A DNA stretch of 64,000 nt, taken from Lyngbya aestuarii BL J (GTDB lineage Bacteria > Cyanobacteriota > Cyanobacteriia > Cyanobacteriales > Microcoleaceae). Shown here one piece after another: positions 31,689 through 40,962 of the stretch. Positions within the stretch are counted from its first letter, which is position 1. Every line of letters starts with the position of its first letter. Both the position numbers and the translations under genes were made by a program. The notes below the pieces were generated by a model. It did no database searches. It was given only the letters and a program-made list of their open reading frames with translations, and was not told where the DNA came from. Location of the stretch: NCBI RefSeq assembly GCF_000478195.2, contig NZ_AUZM01000002.1, positions 124,001-188,000 on the forward strand. The letters are read 5' to 3'.

Positions 31689-32603
31689 TTATTCTCCCGA
31701 AGTTAAGGCTTCAAATCCCGATGCAATATCGAGTAATTCTCCGGTAATTGAACTTTGACGTTCACGACGATATTGAGCGGTTAAATCCGATAAGCGTTCG
31801 CGAATATTTTTTTCTGCTGCTTGCATGGAAGACAAACGACTGGCATTTTCACTGGCGAGAGATTCTGCTAAGGCTCGAAATAAAGATACAAATAAATATT
31901 GGCGAATTAAAGCCGAAAATAACGCTTCCCAGTTCATCGTAAATATCGGCATCATCGAGGTTTGCCACTCTCTATTTTCCAACTCTTTTAACCATTCCGC
32001 ATCCAAAGGCAAAAGATTATATTGACGGGATTCATAAGAAGCGCCGGAAGTGGATTGATTATAAAATAATATCACCCGATGCACCTGTTTTTCAAATCGC
32101 CACTGCTCCAAAGTCAGCAAAATATCCTGTACAACTGCGGTAATTCCGGTTGCCGAACTCGGGACATAAAATAGGGTTTCAATTGATTTTTTATTCGCTT
32201 CTAAAACCGGAACCACTCGCGCCCCAATTGCGGCAATATGTTGATTTTCTGCGGGAATTTCTAAGTCTTCCAACTGTTCCATTGCATGGGTAGCAATCTG
32301 TTCGTTGAACTGTCCGCACAACCCCTGATCGGAACCAAAAATTAAAACTCCCACCCGATTTGTTGGGGCGGATTGGGTTAACGTTTGGGAGAGGGGAGCA
32401 AAAGAATCGCCGTTAAAATATTGCTGTTTGAGAACAATTTGCAACCCCATTTCTACGGTGCGATTATATTGATAAAGCGATTTAACTGCCTGTTCATATT
32501 GTCGAATACTCACCGCAGCCAACGCTTTCATTGTTTTAACAACCGACTGTAAATCTTCGGTACTGCCAATTTTAGCTTTCAGAGCTTCCGGTGTCGCCGC
32601 CAC
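31689..32603 (-). CDS. atpG: N-ATPase F1 subunit gamma
   Basis: 304 residues, last gene of the alternative F-ATPase operon. I choose the GTG at 32603 because GGAGG lies just before it and the protein then begins [19 protein letters not shown], matching the gamma N-terminus. An upstream in-frame start would only translate the repeat region of atpA out of frame. The start lies inside the 3' end of atpA (32-base overlap). The body has [11 protein letters not shown] and the C-terminal helix with [13 protein letters not shown], both conserved in gamma. The gene is intact although atpA and atpD of the same complex are interrupted. Confidence 0.9.
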
Positions 32604-34191
32604 GTTTTTCCTCCCGATTTTCCCCTTGATTTTCCTGTTGATTTTCCCCTTGATTTTCCTCCTCGGGTTTGAAAGAATCCACCGCTTTTTCACAGACTTG
32701 ACGCAACTTATCCCAGTCTTGATCTTCTAGGGATTCTCCGGCTTCAATGCGATCGCAAATATCCGAACATTGTTCCATTACCGTTTGACATACTTCTTGT
32801 TGGGCTGCATCCATTTGTTCTAAGGAAATATCATCAAAAATACCCTCATTAACCGCAAATAATACAGCAATTTGTTGAGAAACTGGCATCGGTTGCGCCT
32901 CGGGTTGTTTGAGAACTTGACGCACGCGCCGACCCCGTTCTAAGGTTTGTTGGGTGTCTTCATCCAACTGAGTCCCAAAACGGGCAAAAACTTCGACTTC
33001 TTCAAATTGAGAATAGGATAAACGCAAATCTCCGCCAATATCACTATAAGCGGGGAGTTGGGTTTTTCCGCCCACCCGTGACACGGATTTTCCCACATCA
33101 ACTGCGGGTAAAACTGTCTTTTGAAATAATTCCGGCGATAAATAAATTTGTCCGTCTGTAATTGAAATTAAATTCGTCGGAATATAAGCGGAAATATTTT
33201 GCGCCTGAGTTTCAACAATTGGCAATGCTGTTAACGAACCGCCCCCCAATTCTTCGCGTAAATGAGTTGAACGTTCTAACATTCGGGAATGAATATAAAA
33301 AATATCCCCCGGATAAGCTTCCCGGCCGGGCGGGCGGCGCAATAATAATGATAATTATCGATAAGCCCAAGCGTGGCGCGTCAGGTCATCATAAACGATC
33401 AAAACATCTTTCCCCTGTCTCATAAAATATTCTGCCATTGTGGTGGCGGCGTAGGGGGTAATATATTTTAAACCGGGGGGATTTTCTCCGGCTGAAACAA
33501 CAACAAATGTATATTCCATCGCGCCTTTTGAACGCAAACTTTCTATCGATTTTGCAACAGCAGAAGCCCGTTGACCGATGGCACAATAAACACAAATTAC
33601 ATCTTGATCTTTTTGATTTAAAATCGTATCAATTGCGATCGCCGTTTTTCCGGTTTGGCGATCGCCGACAATTAATTCCCGTTGACCGCGACCAATGGGA
33701 ATCAAAGCATCTATTACTTTTAAACCCGTTTGTAGGGGAACTTTTACGGGGGCGCGATCCATAATTGCCGGGGCTTCCTGTTCGATAGAACGGCGTTCTT
33801 CGGCATCTATTTCTTCCCCGTTATCGAGGGGAATGCCCACCGGATTAACCACCCGACCGAGCAAGCCTTCCCCGACGGGTACATCCATCACCCGTCCGGT
33901 TCGATGCACCTTATTTCCTGCTTCGATATGTTCGCTATCATCGAGGAGAATTACCCCCACTTTGTCCGCGTCTAAATTAAACGCAATTCCGAGCAAATCG
34001 CCGGGGAAACTGATCAGTTCATCTACTTTTACATGGGGCAAGCCGGAGACCGTTGCAATCCCGCTATAAACCGATTGTACGATACCAACTTCCTGACTTT
34101 TAAGCTGGGGTTCATGCTCCTGCAACACCCGATCAAACGAGTAAAAAGTTTCATCTAAAATGGATTGCAACGATTCAGAATTTGGGGTCAT
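32572..34191 (-). pseudogene. atpA: N-ATPase F1 subunit alpha, interrupted by one in-frame TAA
   Basis: The alpha-subunit frame is continuous from 34191 to 32572 (540 codons) except for one TAA at 33355-33357. Before it are 278 residues with [13 protein letters not shown], the P-loop [13 protein letters not shown] and [16 protein letters not shown]. Directly after it, in the same frame, the protein continues [20 protein letters not shown]. Family members read AYR(E/Q)(L/M)[16 protein letters not shown], so the TAA stands for one Glu/Gln codon. The remaining 260 residues are normal up to a tail of four repeats (GEN/QEN). No frameshift is seen. It may be a recent nonsense mutation, a readthrough site or a sequence error. 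Confidence 0.88.
32611..32658 (-). repeat. Four 12-bp tandem repeats at the end of atpA
   Basis: Four 12-base units (consensus GAAAATCAAGGG on the coding strand) encode [16 protein letters not shown] in the alpha-subunit tail. The last unit also supplies part of the GGGAGG that serves as ribosome binding site for atpG. Confidence 0.7.
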
Positions 34192-34209: not shown

Positions 34210-34755
34210 CTACAGAACGCGAGTAAAGTCGGCTACGACAACCGTTTTATCTTTATATTCTGCTTCCAGTTCTCGTTGAATATCTAAGTCCCAAGTTAGA
34301 TCGTAATCGCGTTCCAATTCTGTGATTTCAAACCGACGAACCTCTCCGGTAACTTGCACGTTTTCGCCATCAACAATCGGTTCTAATTGATTCTCGACTG
34401 AGATCACCAGCACCTCATCTTCGTCAAATAAGTTCTCTTCATCCTCCAATACGAAGGAATTTAGACTGACGACGTTTTCGACTTCACCGCTAATTGTAAC
34501 CGTTTCGCCGATATATTCTTCGGTGTTTTCTTTGACTTCCTCAACGGAGGTTACGGTTTCTACGGCTTCAGTGTCGTTTGTGATCAGATTGTCATCTGGG
34601 GTATTTACAGCGTTATTTTCGTACCCATCGCAAGCAACTAAAACGCCGGATATTAAGACCATTGCCACTGCCGATCCGCTCTTTTTCCAGTTAGTCACAA
34701 TCCGTTTAATTAAATTCGTTTCCTTGTTTTCCGATTTTAAACTGTTAAGATTCAT
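34210..34755 (-). CDS. Acidic lipoprotein inserted between atpF and atpA
   Basis: 181 residues with AGGAGG 11 bases before the ATG. A basic N-terminus leads into the hydrophobic VAMVLISGVLVAC, a lipobox-like end. The rest is strongly acidic, with repeated short beta segments (ETVTISGEVENVV, ENVQVTGEVRRFE) resembling an OB-like fold. No standard N-ATPase subunit fits it. It lies 18 bases before atpA and on the same strand, so it is within the operon. Function unknown; association with the ATPase is only by position. Confidence 0.7.
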   Translation of the reverse strand: MNLNSLKSENKETNLIKRIVTNWKKSGSAVAMVLISGVLVACDGYENNAVNTPDDNLITNDTEAVETVTSVEEVKENTEEYIGETVTISGEVENVVSLNSFVLEDEENLFDEDEVLVISVENQLEPIVDGENVQVTGEVRRFEITELERDYDLTWDLDIQRELEAEYKDKTVVVADFTRVL

Positions 34756-34880: not shown

Positions 34881-36218
34881 CTAACCCCGGAAAGAGGGAG
34901 CGCGATCCTCTTCCTTGAGAAGCATGGAGAAGCGTTCATCCAGGTTTTGAACGTAGCGATCGAGACTCCAAACAATCTCATTCCCGGCGAGTTGTAATTC
35001 TATTCCGCAGATGAGATCGGGCGATCGCTTAAATTTGATTTCCTGTTCATTTCCGTTGAACAACATTACTTGCTCTAGAGTTTGGATAATTTCTTGTTTT
35101 TGAGCGTCAGGAATTTCAAAACTACTGCGAATCATCAAATCTGAATCGGACTGCTGTAAAGTTTGAGCGAGTTGTTGTTGCTGGGGAAAGTTCACAGATT
35201 GTAAACGTTTGAGGAAAGTGGCGATCGCCTGTTCTTCTAAGGAAGCATCAACAATATCTTTTAAAGCGTGACGGGCAACTTCACAAGAATATTCGATCAA
35301 CTGTTGCTGAAGTTTTTCTTCCGAAGAACGGGCTGTTTTTTGTTGATTGGCTTGCCGTATTTCCGCCTGTATAACTTCAGAAATATCCCGCTGTATTTGC
35401 TGGAGATAATCATGAAAACTCCAAGCCAGTTCGTAGCCTCCCGCTAACAGTTCAATTCCACAGATGAGATCGGAAGATGGCTCAAACTGAACCAAAATTT
35501 TTTCTTCCTCCTCTTCTTCCGCTTCTGTCGGTTCGGCTTGACCATTTTGATCTTCGCTATTTTGATCTTCAATATCTTCCGGTTCTAGCGTGAGAGATTG
35601 ATCGGGAAAAATCTGCTGTTGTAACAGATCAAAAATCTGGTTTTGGGTTTCTTCAGATAGTTCAAACCGACTGCGAATTAAAATCGGTTCGGGGGACTGT
35701 TCTAAAGCTTGAGCGATGGTTTCTCGTTCGGAATTCTCTAAGTTTTGCAAGTTGCCGATAAACCGGGATACAACTTGCTGTTCTAGAGAAATTTCAGCCA
35801 AATCGAATAATATTTTTCGGGTGATTTCGACGGTTTTTTCACTGACTTTTTCTTGCAAGCGATCAAAAAATAATCGCTGTTTTCGTCGAACAGAAGCCTG
35901 CCATTTGGCTTGAATTTGATCGACTTCATCTCGAGCATTTTTTACCAAAGTTTGGCGATGCTGTTCGGCTTTTTCCTTCGCTTCCGACATCAATGCGTTC
36001 CGTCGTTCGTTTAATTGTTGTTGCTGACGGCGATAGGAACTCGCTTCTTTTTTAGCTTTTTCTCGCTCCTGTTCGGCTTCTTGCCATTGGGATTCTATAT
36101 GTTTTTGACGCTTGTGCATCGTGTTCAGAATCGGCTGATAAAGAAACCGTTTCAGCAAGAAAACTAAAATGATGAAGTTAATCAGTTGGGCAATAACTGT
36201 AAACCAATTGATTAACAC
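34881..36218 (-). CDS. atpF: N-ATPase Fo subunit b with duplicated delta-like domain
   Basis: 445 residues starting with GTG at 36218, three bases after the atpE stop. The N-terminal helix LINWFTVIAQLINFIILVFL and KRFLYQPILNTMHKR are typical of b subunits, followed by a coiled coil to about residue 115. N-ATPase b subunits normally end in one delta-like domain and are near 250 residues. Here two copies follow each other: about 120-270 (FELSEETQNQ, SSDLICGIELLAGGYELAWS) and about 280-440 (FEIPDAQKQE, SPDLICGIELQLAGNEIVWS), separated by a Glu-rich stretch. No separate delta gene is present. The duplication accounts for the extra length. Confidence 0.88.
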   Translation of the reverse strand: MLINWFTVIAQLINFIILVFLLKRFLYQPILNTMHKRQKHIESQWQEAEQEREKAKKEASSYRRQQQQLNERRNALMSEAKEKAEQHRQTLVKNARDEVDQIQAKWQASVRRKQRLFFDRLQEKVSEKTVEITRKILFDLAEISLEQQVVSRFIGNLQNLENSERETIAQALEQSPEPILIRSRFELSEETQNQIFDLLQQQIFPDQSLTLEPEDIEDQNSEDQNGQAEPTEAEEEEEEKILVQFEPSSDLICGIELLAGGYELAWSFHDYLQQIQRDISEVIQAEIRQANQQKTARSSEEKLQQQLIEYSCEVARHALKDIVDASLEEQAIATFLKRLQSVNFPQQQQLAQTLQQSDSDLMIRSSFEIPDAQKQEIIQTLEQVMLFNGNEQEIKFKRSPDLICGIELQLAGNEIVWSLDRYVQNLDERFSMLLKEEDRAPSFRG

Positions 36219-36221
36219 GAG

Positions 36222-36497
36222 TTATGCCCCTCCTTGTTGAAAATGGTTCCAAAAAGGATTGGCAAAAATCAAAATCATCGACACAACAAAACAGTAAATT
36301 GCTGTGGATTCAATTAATGCCATTCCCACAAATAATGTGCGGGTAATGGTATTCGTTTTATCGGGTTGTTGAGCCAAGGCTCTCATGGCATTTGCGAGGG
36401 CGAGTCCTTCCCCAATTGCCGGCCCAATTGCACCCAATCCGATGCACAAACCTGCGGTAAAAATCGAAACCATTCCTACTAATCCGAGATTATCCAT
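36222..36497 (-). CDS. atpE: N-ATPase Fo subunit c (Na+-type)
   Basis: 91 residues from the ATG at 36497, overlapping the end of atpB by 8 bases. An upstream start would only add translation of atpB sequence. Two transmembrane helices form the hairpin. Helix 1 carries Glu30 (GPAIGEG), and helix 2 carries Glu63-Ser64-Thr65 (ALIESTAIY). The Glu-Ser-Thr set in helix 2 together with a carboxylate in helix 1 is the ligand pattern associated with Na+ binding in N-ATPases. The ring rotates with ion flow. Intact. Confidence 0.92.
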   Translation of the reverse strand: MDNLGLVGMVSIFTAGLCIGLGAIGPAIGEGLALANAMRALAQQPDKTNTITRTLFVGMALIESTAIYCFVVSMILIFANPFWNHFQQGGA

Positions 36498-37185
36498 TTT
36501 CTTGATGTTGTTGAGTTTGTTTTTGAGCTTGCATTCCGGAGGCAATATAAACGAGCGTTAAAATCGCGAACACGTAGGCTTGAATCACGCCAACTAACAC
36601 CCCAAAAATTCGCATCACTGCCGGAAAAAATAGCGGTACAATTGATAACAATATTGCGACCAAAAGACTTGTACTCATCACATTCCCAAACAGGCGAACC
36701 GCCAGAGAAATTGTCCGCGAGATTTCGCTAATAATTTGGAACGGTAACATAAAGGGTGAAGGCTGAATAAAATGCTTTAAATAGCCTTTTAAACCGCTAT
36801 TTCTAATCCCAAACCAAGGAACCGCAACAAACACCCACAGAGCAAGCGCGGCAGTGGTTGATAATGAACCGGCGGGGGATTCATAAACGGGAAAAATCGT
36901 CAGAATATTGGCCAAGGCAATAAACAGAAATAGCGTTCCAACTAGGGGTAAAAATTTACTGGGGTCTTGTTGGGCAGCACCGCGAATTTGGGTGTTAATG
37001 GTATTGACGATAATTTCTAAGCCATTTTGCCAGGGCGACATCTGCGGTTCAACCGATAAATGACGAGTCACCCACCAAGACCCCAACACCAAAATTGCCA
37101 TCACCAACCAAGTATATAAAATGGTTGCATTCAGAACAATAAATCCCCATTGCCAGATAATAATATTGTCAGGACTAATCTCCAT
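36490..37185 (-). CDS. atpB: N-ATPase Fo subunit a
   Basis: 231 residues, five to six transmembrane helices. The conserved stator Arg lies in ISLAVRLFGNVMS. The N-terminal segment has the MSPWQNGLEIIVNTI block of subunit a. It follows atpR by 23 bases and overlaps atpE. Intact; works with the c-ring in ion translocation. Confidence 0.92.
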   Translation of the reverse strand: MEISPDNIIIWQWGFIVLNATILYTWLVMAILVLGSWWVTRHLSVEPQMSPWQNGLEIIVNTINTQIRGAAQQDPSKFLPLVGTLFLFIALANILTIFPVYESPAGSLSTTAALALWVFVAVPWFGIRNSGLKGYLKHFIQPSPFMLPFQIISEISRTISLAVRLFGNVMSTSLLVAILLSIVPLFFPAVMRIFGVLVGVIQAYVFAILTLVYIASGMQAQKQTQQHQENG

Positions 37186-37208: not shown

Positions 37209-37496
37209 CTAGAGGTCAAATTTGATTTTATTGTTCGGTTGCCAACGACGAATTAACAGGGTGCGGGCGACTAAAAATCCGACTAATCCAATTAAAGCCC
37301 GTTGCCATTCTCCATCGATGATTAGATAGAAACCCAGTAAAACAATCCCCATACGACCGAGCAAACTGCCAATGGTTAAACGCAGGGGCCAAAGCGTTGT
37401 GGGGAGTTGTTGAACGGTAATCCAAAGACTGGTAAAATAGAAGGTTCCTAAGACAATCCCCCCCAGTCCAGCTAAGATAATATCCCAAGTATTCAT
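37209..37496 (-). CDS. atpR: N-ATPase membrane subunit AtpR
   Basis: 95 residues with three hydrophobic helices (IILAGLGGIVLGTFYF, GRMGIVLLGFYLI, LIGLVGFLVARTLL) and Arg residues inside or next to them (PLRLTIGSLLGR). It matches in size, position and pattern the AtpR protein that is specific to N-ATPase operons, where it is thought to help assemble the c-ring. It sits between atpQ/SDR and atpB as expected from the order atpQ-R-B. Confidence 0.85.
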   Translation of the reverse strand: MNTWDIILAGLGGIVLGTFYFTSLWITVQQLPTTLWPLRLTIGSLLGRMGIVLLGFYLIIDGEWQRALIGLVGFLVARTLLIRRWQPNNKIKFDL

Positions 37497-37535: not shown

Positions 37536-38291
<756 letters not shown>

Positions 38292-38331: not shown

Positions 38332-38655
38332 TCAATCCTGTTGACTTTCTCGCTGTACCCAATACCAGGCATTAAAACAACCCAAAATCACACCCAAAAA
38401 TAACAACATGAGCGTCCAAGAATAGGGACTCGGCCAATTCGTATCAATCCAAACCCCTATAAAAATTCCAATTAATGTGGGAATCGCTATCGCCCAACCC
38501 ACCAACCCAAACATTGCCAAACTGTACCAAATGCCCCGTTCTTCTTCGGTTCTGGCTTTAATTCTGCGGTTATATTTTTGATCAAATTGCTGTTTAAACG
38601 CTTTGTAAGCTTCAGCCTTCTTTTTGGGTTATAATCGACGCGATCGCTTTACCAC
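38332..38655 (-). pseudogene. atpQ: N-ATPase subunit AtpQ with one early in-frame TAA
   Basis: AGGAGG lies 6 bases before a GTG at 38655 that overlaps the atpC stop, an excellent translation start. The frame then reads eight more codons (VKRSRRL-type) and meets TAA at 38629-38631. The same frame continues PKKKAEAYKAFKQQFDQKYN, then AMFGLVGWAIAIPTLIGIFI and a second transmembrane helix, which is the AtpI/AtpQ pattern (AtpZ/AtpI family). No usable start with a ribosome binding site exists after the TAA before the first transmembrane helix. The protein would be about 107 residues if the TAA were read through. AtpQ is thought to assist Na+ or Mg2+ handling or c-ring assembly. Confidence 0.75.
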
Positions 38656-39038
38656 TGGCTTCCTCCTGACTTAATAAATCCGCGAATAAATCCGGCTTCT
38701 AATTGGGCTTCCGCAGAACGAGCTTGTTTTTCTTTATCATCTAAACGGCGATATTCTTCGTTAACAGTTTGTTGTAAGCTGTCTAAATTTTCTCCCAGTA
38801 TGGCTTGGCGAAGCGAAACAAAACCCTCACCCCCACATTTAACCAAAATCCCCCGATCTACCGCCACAAACCTTTCCCCTTTCTGAGATTCAAAAGATAA
38901 AATTCCCGGCACAATTGCGGTGACAAAATCAATATGATTCGGTAGCAAAACAAATGACCCATTTTCGGCTTCTGCGGTTACCTTATCAACGGTTTCTTCT
39001 AACAAAATTTTTATCGGTAATAAAATCGTCAATCTCAT
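38649..39038 (-). CDS. atpC: N-ATPase F1 subunit epsilon
   Basis: 129 residues. The N-terminal beta sandwich has the LLPNHIDFVTAIVPGIL block, where the family normally shows a similar GxxPxHxxxxxxLxPG pattern, and RGILVKCGGEGFVSL. The C-terminal helices follow. A diverged copy of its first 22 codons lies further upstream (39424-39492), on the other side of the FxxGx-repeat gene. Its stop overlaps the atpQ start. Intact. Confidence 0.88.
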   Translation of the reverse strand: MRLTILLPIKILLEETVDKVTAEAENGSFVLLPNHIDFVTAIVPGILSFESQKGERFVAVDRGILVKCGGEGFVSLRQAILGENLDSLQQTVNEEYRRLDDKEKQARSAEAQLEAGFIRGFIKSGGSQW

Positions 39039-39064: not shown

Positions 39065-39394
39065 TTACTGTTGATTTTCGCTCTCGGATAGTTTTCGAGA
39101 GGCATAAACCGAATAGGAAATTAAACCCAATGCAAACAAGCCTGTTGAAAACAGACCGAACGAAAACAGACCGAACGAAAAAATACCCGCCGAAAAAATA
39201 CCCACCGCAAAGATTCCGACAGAAAATTGACCAGCAGCAAAGACTCCGGCAGCAAAATTACCCGCCGCAAAATAATTCCGAACAAATTGGCCCGCCGAAA
39301 ACGGTTCAGGTAAGAGCAAAATACCGACAGCCATTAACGCTAAGACAATAACAGCAATCACCCAATTATATTTTTGAAGTAAACTTATATTCAT
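39065..39394 (-). CDS. FxxGx-repeat membrane protein inserted between atpD and atpC
   Basis: 109 residues from the ATG at 39394. An ATG at 39424 in the same frame overlaps the TAA of the atpC fragment and is also possible by re-initiation. After a hydrophobic N-terminal helix come about ten tandem five-residue repeats of form F-x-x-G-x (FAAGN, FAAGV, FAAGQ, FSVGI ... FALGL), then a short polar tail. The phase is that of a pentapeptide-like repeat, but with Gly at position four. It is not an ATPase subunit. Function unknown; its insertion is linked to a partial duplication of atpC. Confidence 0.65.
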   Translation of the reverse strand: MNISLLQKYNWVIAVIVLALMAVGILLLPEPFSAGQFVRNYFAAGNFAAGVFAAGQFSVGIFAVGIFSAGIFSFGLFSFGLFSTGLFALGLISYSVYASRKLSESENQQ

Positions 39395-39423
39395 GGCTCT
39401 AAATAGGATACATCTATCTATCA

Positions 39424-39492
39424 TTATGCGGTTACTTTATCAACAGTTTCTTCTAACAGAATCTTGGTCGGCAACAAAATTGTCAATTCCAT
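39424..39492 (-). pseudogene. Truncated duplicate of the atpC 5' end
   Basis: 22 codons reading ELTILLPTKILLEETVDKVT, then GCA and TAA. The true atpC starts RLTILLPIKILLEETVDKVT, GCA, GAA. The two are alike over 66 bases with mostly third-position changes. The fragment sits where atpC should follow atpD, so the FxxGx gene appears to have entered here together with a duplication. Confidence 0.75.

Positions 39493-39540: not shown

Positions 39541-40962
<1,422 letters not shown>

Follow-up and report, generated by a model that had tools for sequence, protein, structure and literature searches.

The stator subunit b encoded in an N-ATPase operon of Lyngbya aestuarii BL J carries two heads instead of the one expected of its family. 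In the window, by which we mean the whole 64,000-nucleotide stretch of DNA analyzed here, the gene lies on the minus strand at positions 34881 to 36218, and alignment and profile comparison show that its product consists of one membrane helix, a stalk as long as in ordinary b, and head 1 in the usual place, followed by a helical segment and head 2. In any rotary ATPase, the catalytic head has to be held still while the rotor turns; in F-ATPases, a single delta/OSCP per enzyme forms the grip between stalk and head. With moderate confidence, we interpret the two-headed b as a stator subunit whose gene has undergone an internal duplication of the F1-gripping unit, probably once, in the ancestor of a small lineage of cyanobacterial N-ATPases.

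The frame of 445 amino acids opens with a GTG codon at 36218 and runs without an internal stop to the stop codon at 34881 to 34883; the plus-strand frame across the same interval contains many stops. The protein matches the N-ATPase b model TIGR03321 in two stretches, the best of which covers residues 1 to 280, with 345.3 bits (E = 2.3e-103; curated cut-off, 224.7), and model NF011044 with 384.9 bits (1.7e-115), and PF00430 is matched at residues 7 to 137. An earlier, sequence-only reading of this DNA had assigned the gene to N-ATPase subunit b and given its position and its length of 445 residues; these statements are correct, the two phrases it quoted from the protein are present in the translation, and the gene is now placed on the minus strand. 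The family is characterized by one head in a chain of about 250 residues, so that the window protein, with two heads in 445 residues, is a variant of the N-ATPase subunit b family. The membrane helix and the proximal stalk helix (residues 1 to 106; 35901 to 36218, minus strand) are present in a single copy with the length typical of ordinary N-ATPase b.

The remainder of the chain is repetitive. When residues 1 to 285 were compared with residues 286 to 445 by BLASTP, with compositional adjustment and SEG filtering on, residues 107 to 284 aligned with residues 289 to 435 with 49 of 178 positions identical (28%; E = 3e-16), and the Smith-Waterman self-score of 207 compares with 46 ± 8 for 1,000 shuffled sequences, the highest of which reached 94. 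When the heads of 19 other cyanobacterial N-ATPase b proteins, not including the window protein, were used as a profile, both copies were matched: copy 2 in one piece (2.9e-39), and copy 1 as two matches (2.8e-26 and 4.4e-14) on either side of an acidic insert. The tandem delta-like domain proposed in the sequence-only reading, which had named self-alignment as the check, is thus borne out by a significant self-alignment and by profile matches to both copies, but the duplicated unit is larger than was proposed: it includes the distal b helix from residue 107 onward. Judging from the alignment, the repeated unit is the distal b helix plus the globular head. On the minus strand, self-alignment, the head profile, and the predicted models delimit copy 1, with the distal b helix and a head resembling the delta C-terminal domain (residues 107 to 284; 35367 to 35900), and copy 2, with a helical segment and head 2 (residues 289 to 435; 34914 to 35354). 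The acidic insert lies within head 1 (approximately residues 206 to 239; 35502 to 35603, minus strand, by alignment), and in the full-length model head 1 is closed by a predicted helix at residues 268 to 293 (35340 to 35417, minus strand).

To relate the heads to known domains, a profile of 68 heads, namely, window copy 2 and 67 single heads, was compared with solved structures and matched the C-terminal domains of delta/OSCP subunits, the best being 7p2y_d at residues 97 to 162 (3.8e-8), followed by, among others, 9o19_W (2.1e-6) and the mycobacterial b-delta chain 7jg5_d at residues 376 to 436 (0.0022). The six-helix N-terminal domain of delta was not found: all 10 delta/OSCP chains listed were matched from residue 83 or later, and the residues preceding the head in the window protein are the b helix, as indicated by the PF00430 match and the full-length predicted model, not the delta N-terminal domain. 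When four individual pieces were scored against PF00213 (cut-off, 22.3 bits), one from another two-headed protein, L169, exceeded the cut-off (26.1 bits), window copy 2 (17.3 bits) and a piece of L168 (15.0 bits) fell below it, and window copy 1 alone gave no match. The head is, on the strength of the profile comparisons, a homolog of the C-terminal domain of F-ATPase delta/OSCP. The description of the domain as delta-like therefore stands as far as homology to delta/OSCP is concerned; it applies, however, to the C-terminal domain only, and the fold also resembles FliH and V-ATPase stalk chains.

This resemblance comes from predicted models. Head 2 folded alone, with the 67 single heads as its alignment, gave a pLDDT of 85.9 and a pTM of 0.68, with the predicted order helix, helix, helix, strand, helix, three strands, helix. 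Foldseek returned no match to this model at E ≤ 0.001; a second look at the Foldseek list with VIA-align placed mycobacterial b-delta at the top (Z 12.6; rmsd 3.5 over 130 aligned residues), followed by FliH-FliI 5b0o_E (Z 9.0), yeast V-ATPase 7fde_I (8.9), the EGC-head stalk chain 4efa_E (8.6), and the bovine ATP synthase stator chain S (Z 7.5; rmsd 1.9 over 74 residues), where, by the tool's own caution, Z values below about 13 may reflect merely a shared arrangement among helical proteins. In all four trial alignments, in the rows shown, MAFFT set head fragments on copy 1, not on copy 2; the full-length model therefore has no alignment depth over copy 2, which is why copy 2 was folded separately. 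The full-length model (pLDDT 80.5; pTM 0.44) predicts the same order of elements in head 1 as in head 2 folded alone, plus a short extra strand in the insert, and merges the first two helices of head 2. Between the heads, it places helices at residues 268 to 293 and 300 to 341, with a break at 294 to 299, compared with 283 to 322 and 325 to 341, with a break at 323 to 324, in the separate model. Because of these differing limits, the pTM of 0.44, and the low pLDDT of residues 291 to 330 (about 56 to 64), the linker and the relative position of the two heads are uncertain.

To determine how widespread this architecture is, TIGR03321 was searched against overlapping draws of 386 genomes from the phylum, 40 from relatives, 388 from the order, and 388 from the class, as well as against five families of 14, 14, 61, 50, and 10 genomes. 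The phylum, order, and class draws together yielded 87 different N-ATPase b places in 85 cyanobacterial genomes at E ≤ 1e-30, counted among the matches listed, at most six candidates per genome having been scored. Open frames longer than 350 amino acids were found at 4 of these places, the window (446) and genomes G466 (432), G489 (421), and G509 (412), and the next longest is 319; for the remaining 83 places, frame length was the criterion, with a head test added for those whose sequences were retrieved. All four long frames carry two heads, and the three additional proteins (L167, L168, and L169) have lengths of 431, 420, and 411 residues. G509 also encodes an ordinary N-ATPase b of 255 amino acids. 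Each of the 99 other proteins, identical pairs included, has one head; among the matches listed, these comprise 19 from the cyanobacterial search and 80 contig loci, and the noncyanobacterial loci among the latter are all single headed. The contig loci were collected with one peptide pattern that fits none of the four two-headed proteins, and their lack of a two-headed match therefore says little. Among 26 plasmid records, the matched places span at most 828 bases, so that by place length none encodes a two-headed b.

In single-headed b proteins of 306 to 422 amino acids, the head is followed by a long tail; for example, seven loci outside Cyanobacteriota (L131, L130, L102, L084, L087, L092, and L115) encode b of 322 to 422 amino acids with a charged, low-complexity tail behind the single head. 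A duplication confined to the window genome is ruled out by the three further two-headed proteins. The sequence-only reading had considered that many cyanobacterial N-ATPase b subunits might share the duplication. Instead, the two-headed form is rare, at 4 of the 87 places among the matches listed, although it is not unique to the window, being found in three more genomes. In agreement with the remark in that reading that no described case was known, no description of a duplicated delta-like domain in b was found in the open-license PMC literature at the level of titles and the beginnings of abstracts. In the family to which the window genome belongs, N-ATPase b was detected at this level in 1 of 61 genomes, which fits lateral transfer.

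The genes around b follow the order beta-epsilon-Q-R-a-c-b-alpha-gamma, with extra ORFs in the beta/epsilon, Q/R, and b/alpha gaps. All are on the minus strand: beta (39541 to 40962), epsilon (38649 to 39038; TIGR03166), an AtpQ/AtpI-like frame (38335 to 38628) that has no clear start codon and an in-frame TAA just ahead of its conserved part, AtpR, the hallmark of N-ATPase operons (37209 to 37496; PF12966, 1e-22; TIGR03165 above cut-off), a (36490 to 37185; TIGR03306), c (36222 to 36545; TIGR03322, matched from ORF residue 18), alpha (32572 to 34191; TIGR03324), and gamma (31689 to 32693; TIGR03323, matched from ORF residue 38). Delta was not named among the ORFs of the cluster that were scanned with profiles (7 in one scan and 6 in another). 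Subunit c contains an ESTAIY stretch, a motif that may bear on Na+ translocation. The operon thus combines AtpR, the lack of a delta gene, and a C-terminal extension of b exceeding 100 amino acids; an extension of this length is given as an N-ATPase criterion in PMC4154653, and delta of N-ATPases is described in PMC11738941 as missing or fused to b. By its gene content, the window operon encodes an N-type rotary ATPase, which is probably Na+ pumping.

Other ORFs are interspersed in the cluster. Between b and alpha, a 181-amino-acid ORF (34210 to 34755, minus strand), lipoprotein-like by eye, matches no family above cut-off; it has a homolog (34% identity) in the same position in L168, and other homologs are found outside the operon in L060. 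Upstream of epsilon, a remnant of the epsilon start (39427 to 39492; 22 codons, 91% identical) is separated from epsilon by a 119-amino-acid ORF with GLTT-like repeats (39065 to 39424), and the two together are perhaps an insertion that duplicated the start of epsilon.

Single in-frame TAA codons interrupt alpha (33355 to 33357), beta (39793 to 39795), and an SDR gene of the cluster (37674 to 37676), all on the minus strand and with the same frame open on either side. At the alpha and beta sites, both L168 and L169 read E (HAWAYREL and IEELSQ). These three codons are either recent nonsense mutations or assembly errors. Because alpha and beta each hold one, the enzyme of the window may be inactive, and we consider it evenly balanced whether the window N-ATPase is a decaying pseudogene cluster with b as a relic, an explanation that is compatible with a duplicated grip. 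In addition to the three stops, the other alpha/beta-type frames of the genome (contigs C53 and C17) are uninterrupted, which fits decay of this cluster, whereas the frames of b, a, c, R, epsilon, and gamma are open over their family matches and sequencing error at three positions may be an alternative source of the TAA codons. Decay of the window cluster also fails to account for the two-headed b in three further genomes, where alpha and the beta matches hold no stop; the two-headed design is therefore not a product of decay. In one of these genomes, the operon is split (L167, G466:C36): unrelated ORFs come after b, and alpha is found on a different contig, C50.

The history of the duplication was examined with two trees. 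In a tree of a, c, and b residues 1 to 150 (54 rows), the four two-headed operons form one clade (support, 100/94). The b part of this tree extends 44 residues into head 1, long branches lead to L022 and L020, and six rows whose a or c pieces are short (L155, L156, L158, L161, L163, and L165) were left out. L166 (open frame, 260 amino acids) was left out of this tree and of the head tree. In the latter (69 rows), the four first copies group together (92/74), as do the four second copies (91/89), neither group being starred, and both copies are located within one starred cyanobacterial head set of 26 rows (98/95); copy 1 of L168 has an odd residue composition. Because the operons form one clade and the first heads and second heads each group, a single old duplication is the likeliest history, and the simplest reading of the trees is that it preceded the split of the four two-headed lineages. 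The distribution of the acidic insert agrees with the tree: a shorter form is found in L167 and L168, and the insert is absent from L169 and from the 19 single-headed proteins. Acquisition of the second head from a foreign b by fusion is disfavored, given that both copies fall within the same starred cyanobacterial set.

Comparison of the copies further shows that both heads have been retained through long divergence. Conservation was assessed in 67 of the 69 contig loci kept from the 80 (shorter than 300 amino acids, with one head match, and with L120 dropped), L129 and L139 being left out. Among the 23 columns with at least 75% conservation in these single heads, the eight heads of the two-headed proteins retain 16 to 20, including the fully conserved glycine and tryptophan in all eight, with slightly fewer in head 2 (16 to 19) than in head 1 (17 to 20) in each of the four proteins. 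Between L167 and L168, head 1 is 72% identical and head 2 is 51% identical, and a plain Nei-Gojobori count, in which dS approaches or exceeds saturation in most other pairs, gives dN/dS values of 0.19/1.53 for copy 1 and 0.38/1.30 for copy 2. Both copies are therefore under constraint, copy 2 less so. The quicker divergence of head 2 in this pair also fits a loosened role, and a two-headed b could work as a stator with head 2 as a peripheral decoration, serving stability, assembly, or another factor without gripping F1. The slightly lower retention of conserved residues in head 2 points the same way, as does the observation that the alpha N-termini of the window, L168, and L169 look no longer than those of the single-headed L060, L080, and L086. 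We nevertheless judge such a decoration unlikely, considering that head 2 still has 16 to 19 of the 23 diagnostic single-head residues, with the glycine and the tryptophan throughout, and that in the head profile it outscores the summed pieces of head 1 in L167 and L168, although it scores lower in the window and L169.

How a second grip would be used depends on where the extra length lies. Residues 2 to 159 of the window protein align without gaps with the 67 single-headed b proteins, and residues 1 to 161 align without gaps with the 19. A longer stalk is therefore unsupported, and with it the change in stator length envisaged in the sequence-only reading, whose other two suggestions, a change in stiffness or stoichiometry, may apply; because the stalk is of normal length up to head 1, an extra grip on F1 or an altered stalk stoichiometry is likelier. 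In the mechanism that we propose, b would stand in for the missing delta, as in other N-ATPases, and by analogy with delta, its heads would fasten the stalk to the alpha N-termini at the top of F1. The long, mostly helical stretch predicted between the beta-bearing parts would be enough to set head 2 beside head 1. One two-headed chain could then supply two heads, as an ordinary b dimer does; alternatively, four heads could come from a dimer of two-headed chains. What the enzyme most likely gains is a further contact with F1, or a brace on it, rather than a longer stalk.

A dimer with four heads, or a chain that is self-sufficient as a head pair, might instead let several stalks, and with them several a subunits, dock on each F1. 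As described in PMC12229609, Bacillus PS3 FoF1 from which the delta N-terminal domain was removed and in which the delta C-terminal domain was placed on each alpha carried as many as three stalks and reached an H+/ATP ratio of 5.8; the authors anticipate that multistalk enzymes also exist in nature. The N-ATPase heads likewise match only the C-terminal domain of delta, and a two-headed b doubles the heads per chain; however, the engineered enzyme relied on fusion to alpha, not to b, and 51% of its particles were still single stalked (PMC12229609). We therefore regard several stalks as improbable here, and retain the idea at that level because the N-ATPase heads are of the same truncated kind as the engineered delta. 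More broadly, N-ATPases, which have no delta N-terminal cap, may naturally bear several stalks or hold several alpha N-termini per stalk, with the two-headed b as an evolved step in that direction; this is a speculative proposal to which we assign a rather low probability. If it is true, one chain would bridge two alpha subunits, or several stalks and a subunits would serve each F1, changing the ion-to-ATP ratio of the Na+ pump. Finally, that the tandem repeat is an assembly artifact or a recent duplication is scarcely credible: the window genome is in 437 contigs, but the copies are only 28% identical and the same arrangement is found in three other genomes.

The reading that we prefer, a gripping unit duplicated within b, can be set against the known systems. 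In comparison with the N-ATPase b family (TIGR03321, alt_F1F0_F0_B; 246 model positions), the window protein is alike in its first 284 residues, in its operon, in its single membrane helix, and in the lack of a delta match, and differs in having a further unit of helix and head, some 160 residues long, and, in three of the four two-headed proteins, in the acidic insert in head 1. The heads resemble the F-ATPase delta/OSCP C-terminal domain in profile (3.8e-8) and in predicted fold (Z 7.5; rmsd 1.9 over 74 residues) but have no N-terminal domain, are joined to b, and occur twice per chain. The best structural match, mycobacterial b-delta (7njk, 7jg5, and others; Z 12.6), also unites a b stalk and a delta C-terminal domain in one chain, and 7jg5_d has 445 amino acids, near the length of the window b; however, it was matched over one delta C-terminal stretch, residues 376 to 436. 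The b/delta model NF009961 (PRK13428 type) gives the window b 43.5 bits, over residues 7 to 171 only, compared with a cut-off of 328, and mycobacterial b-delta is presumably part of an F-ATPase in which delta is complete. FliH (5b0o_E, Z 9.0) and subunit E of V/A-type stalks (4efa_E, Z 8.6) share the helix-plus-head fold with one head per chain, subunit E being paired with G. N-ATPase b is described in PMC5706428 as longer and similar to subunit E, which FliH in turn resembles. Among the solved chains listed as structural or profile matches, none is named as an N-ATPase. Taken over all four genomes, the alignments and trees indicate that the two-headed b is an old, conserved change of design in a few cyanobacteria. 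Further parallels are the engineered multistalk FoF1 and the fusion of delta to alpha in Acidaminococcus fermentans (PMC12229609), in which the delta C-terminal domain, likewise without the N-terminal domain, is multiplied per complex; there, delta is joined once to each alpha, whereas in the window it occurs twice on b. A natural chain with two grips offers a test case for why grips and stalks are limited in number, the question raised by the multistalk FoF1 engineering reported in PMC12229609.
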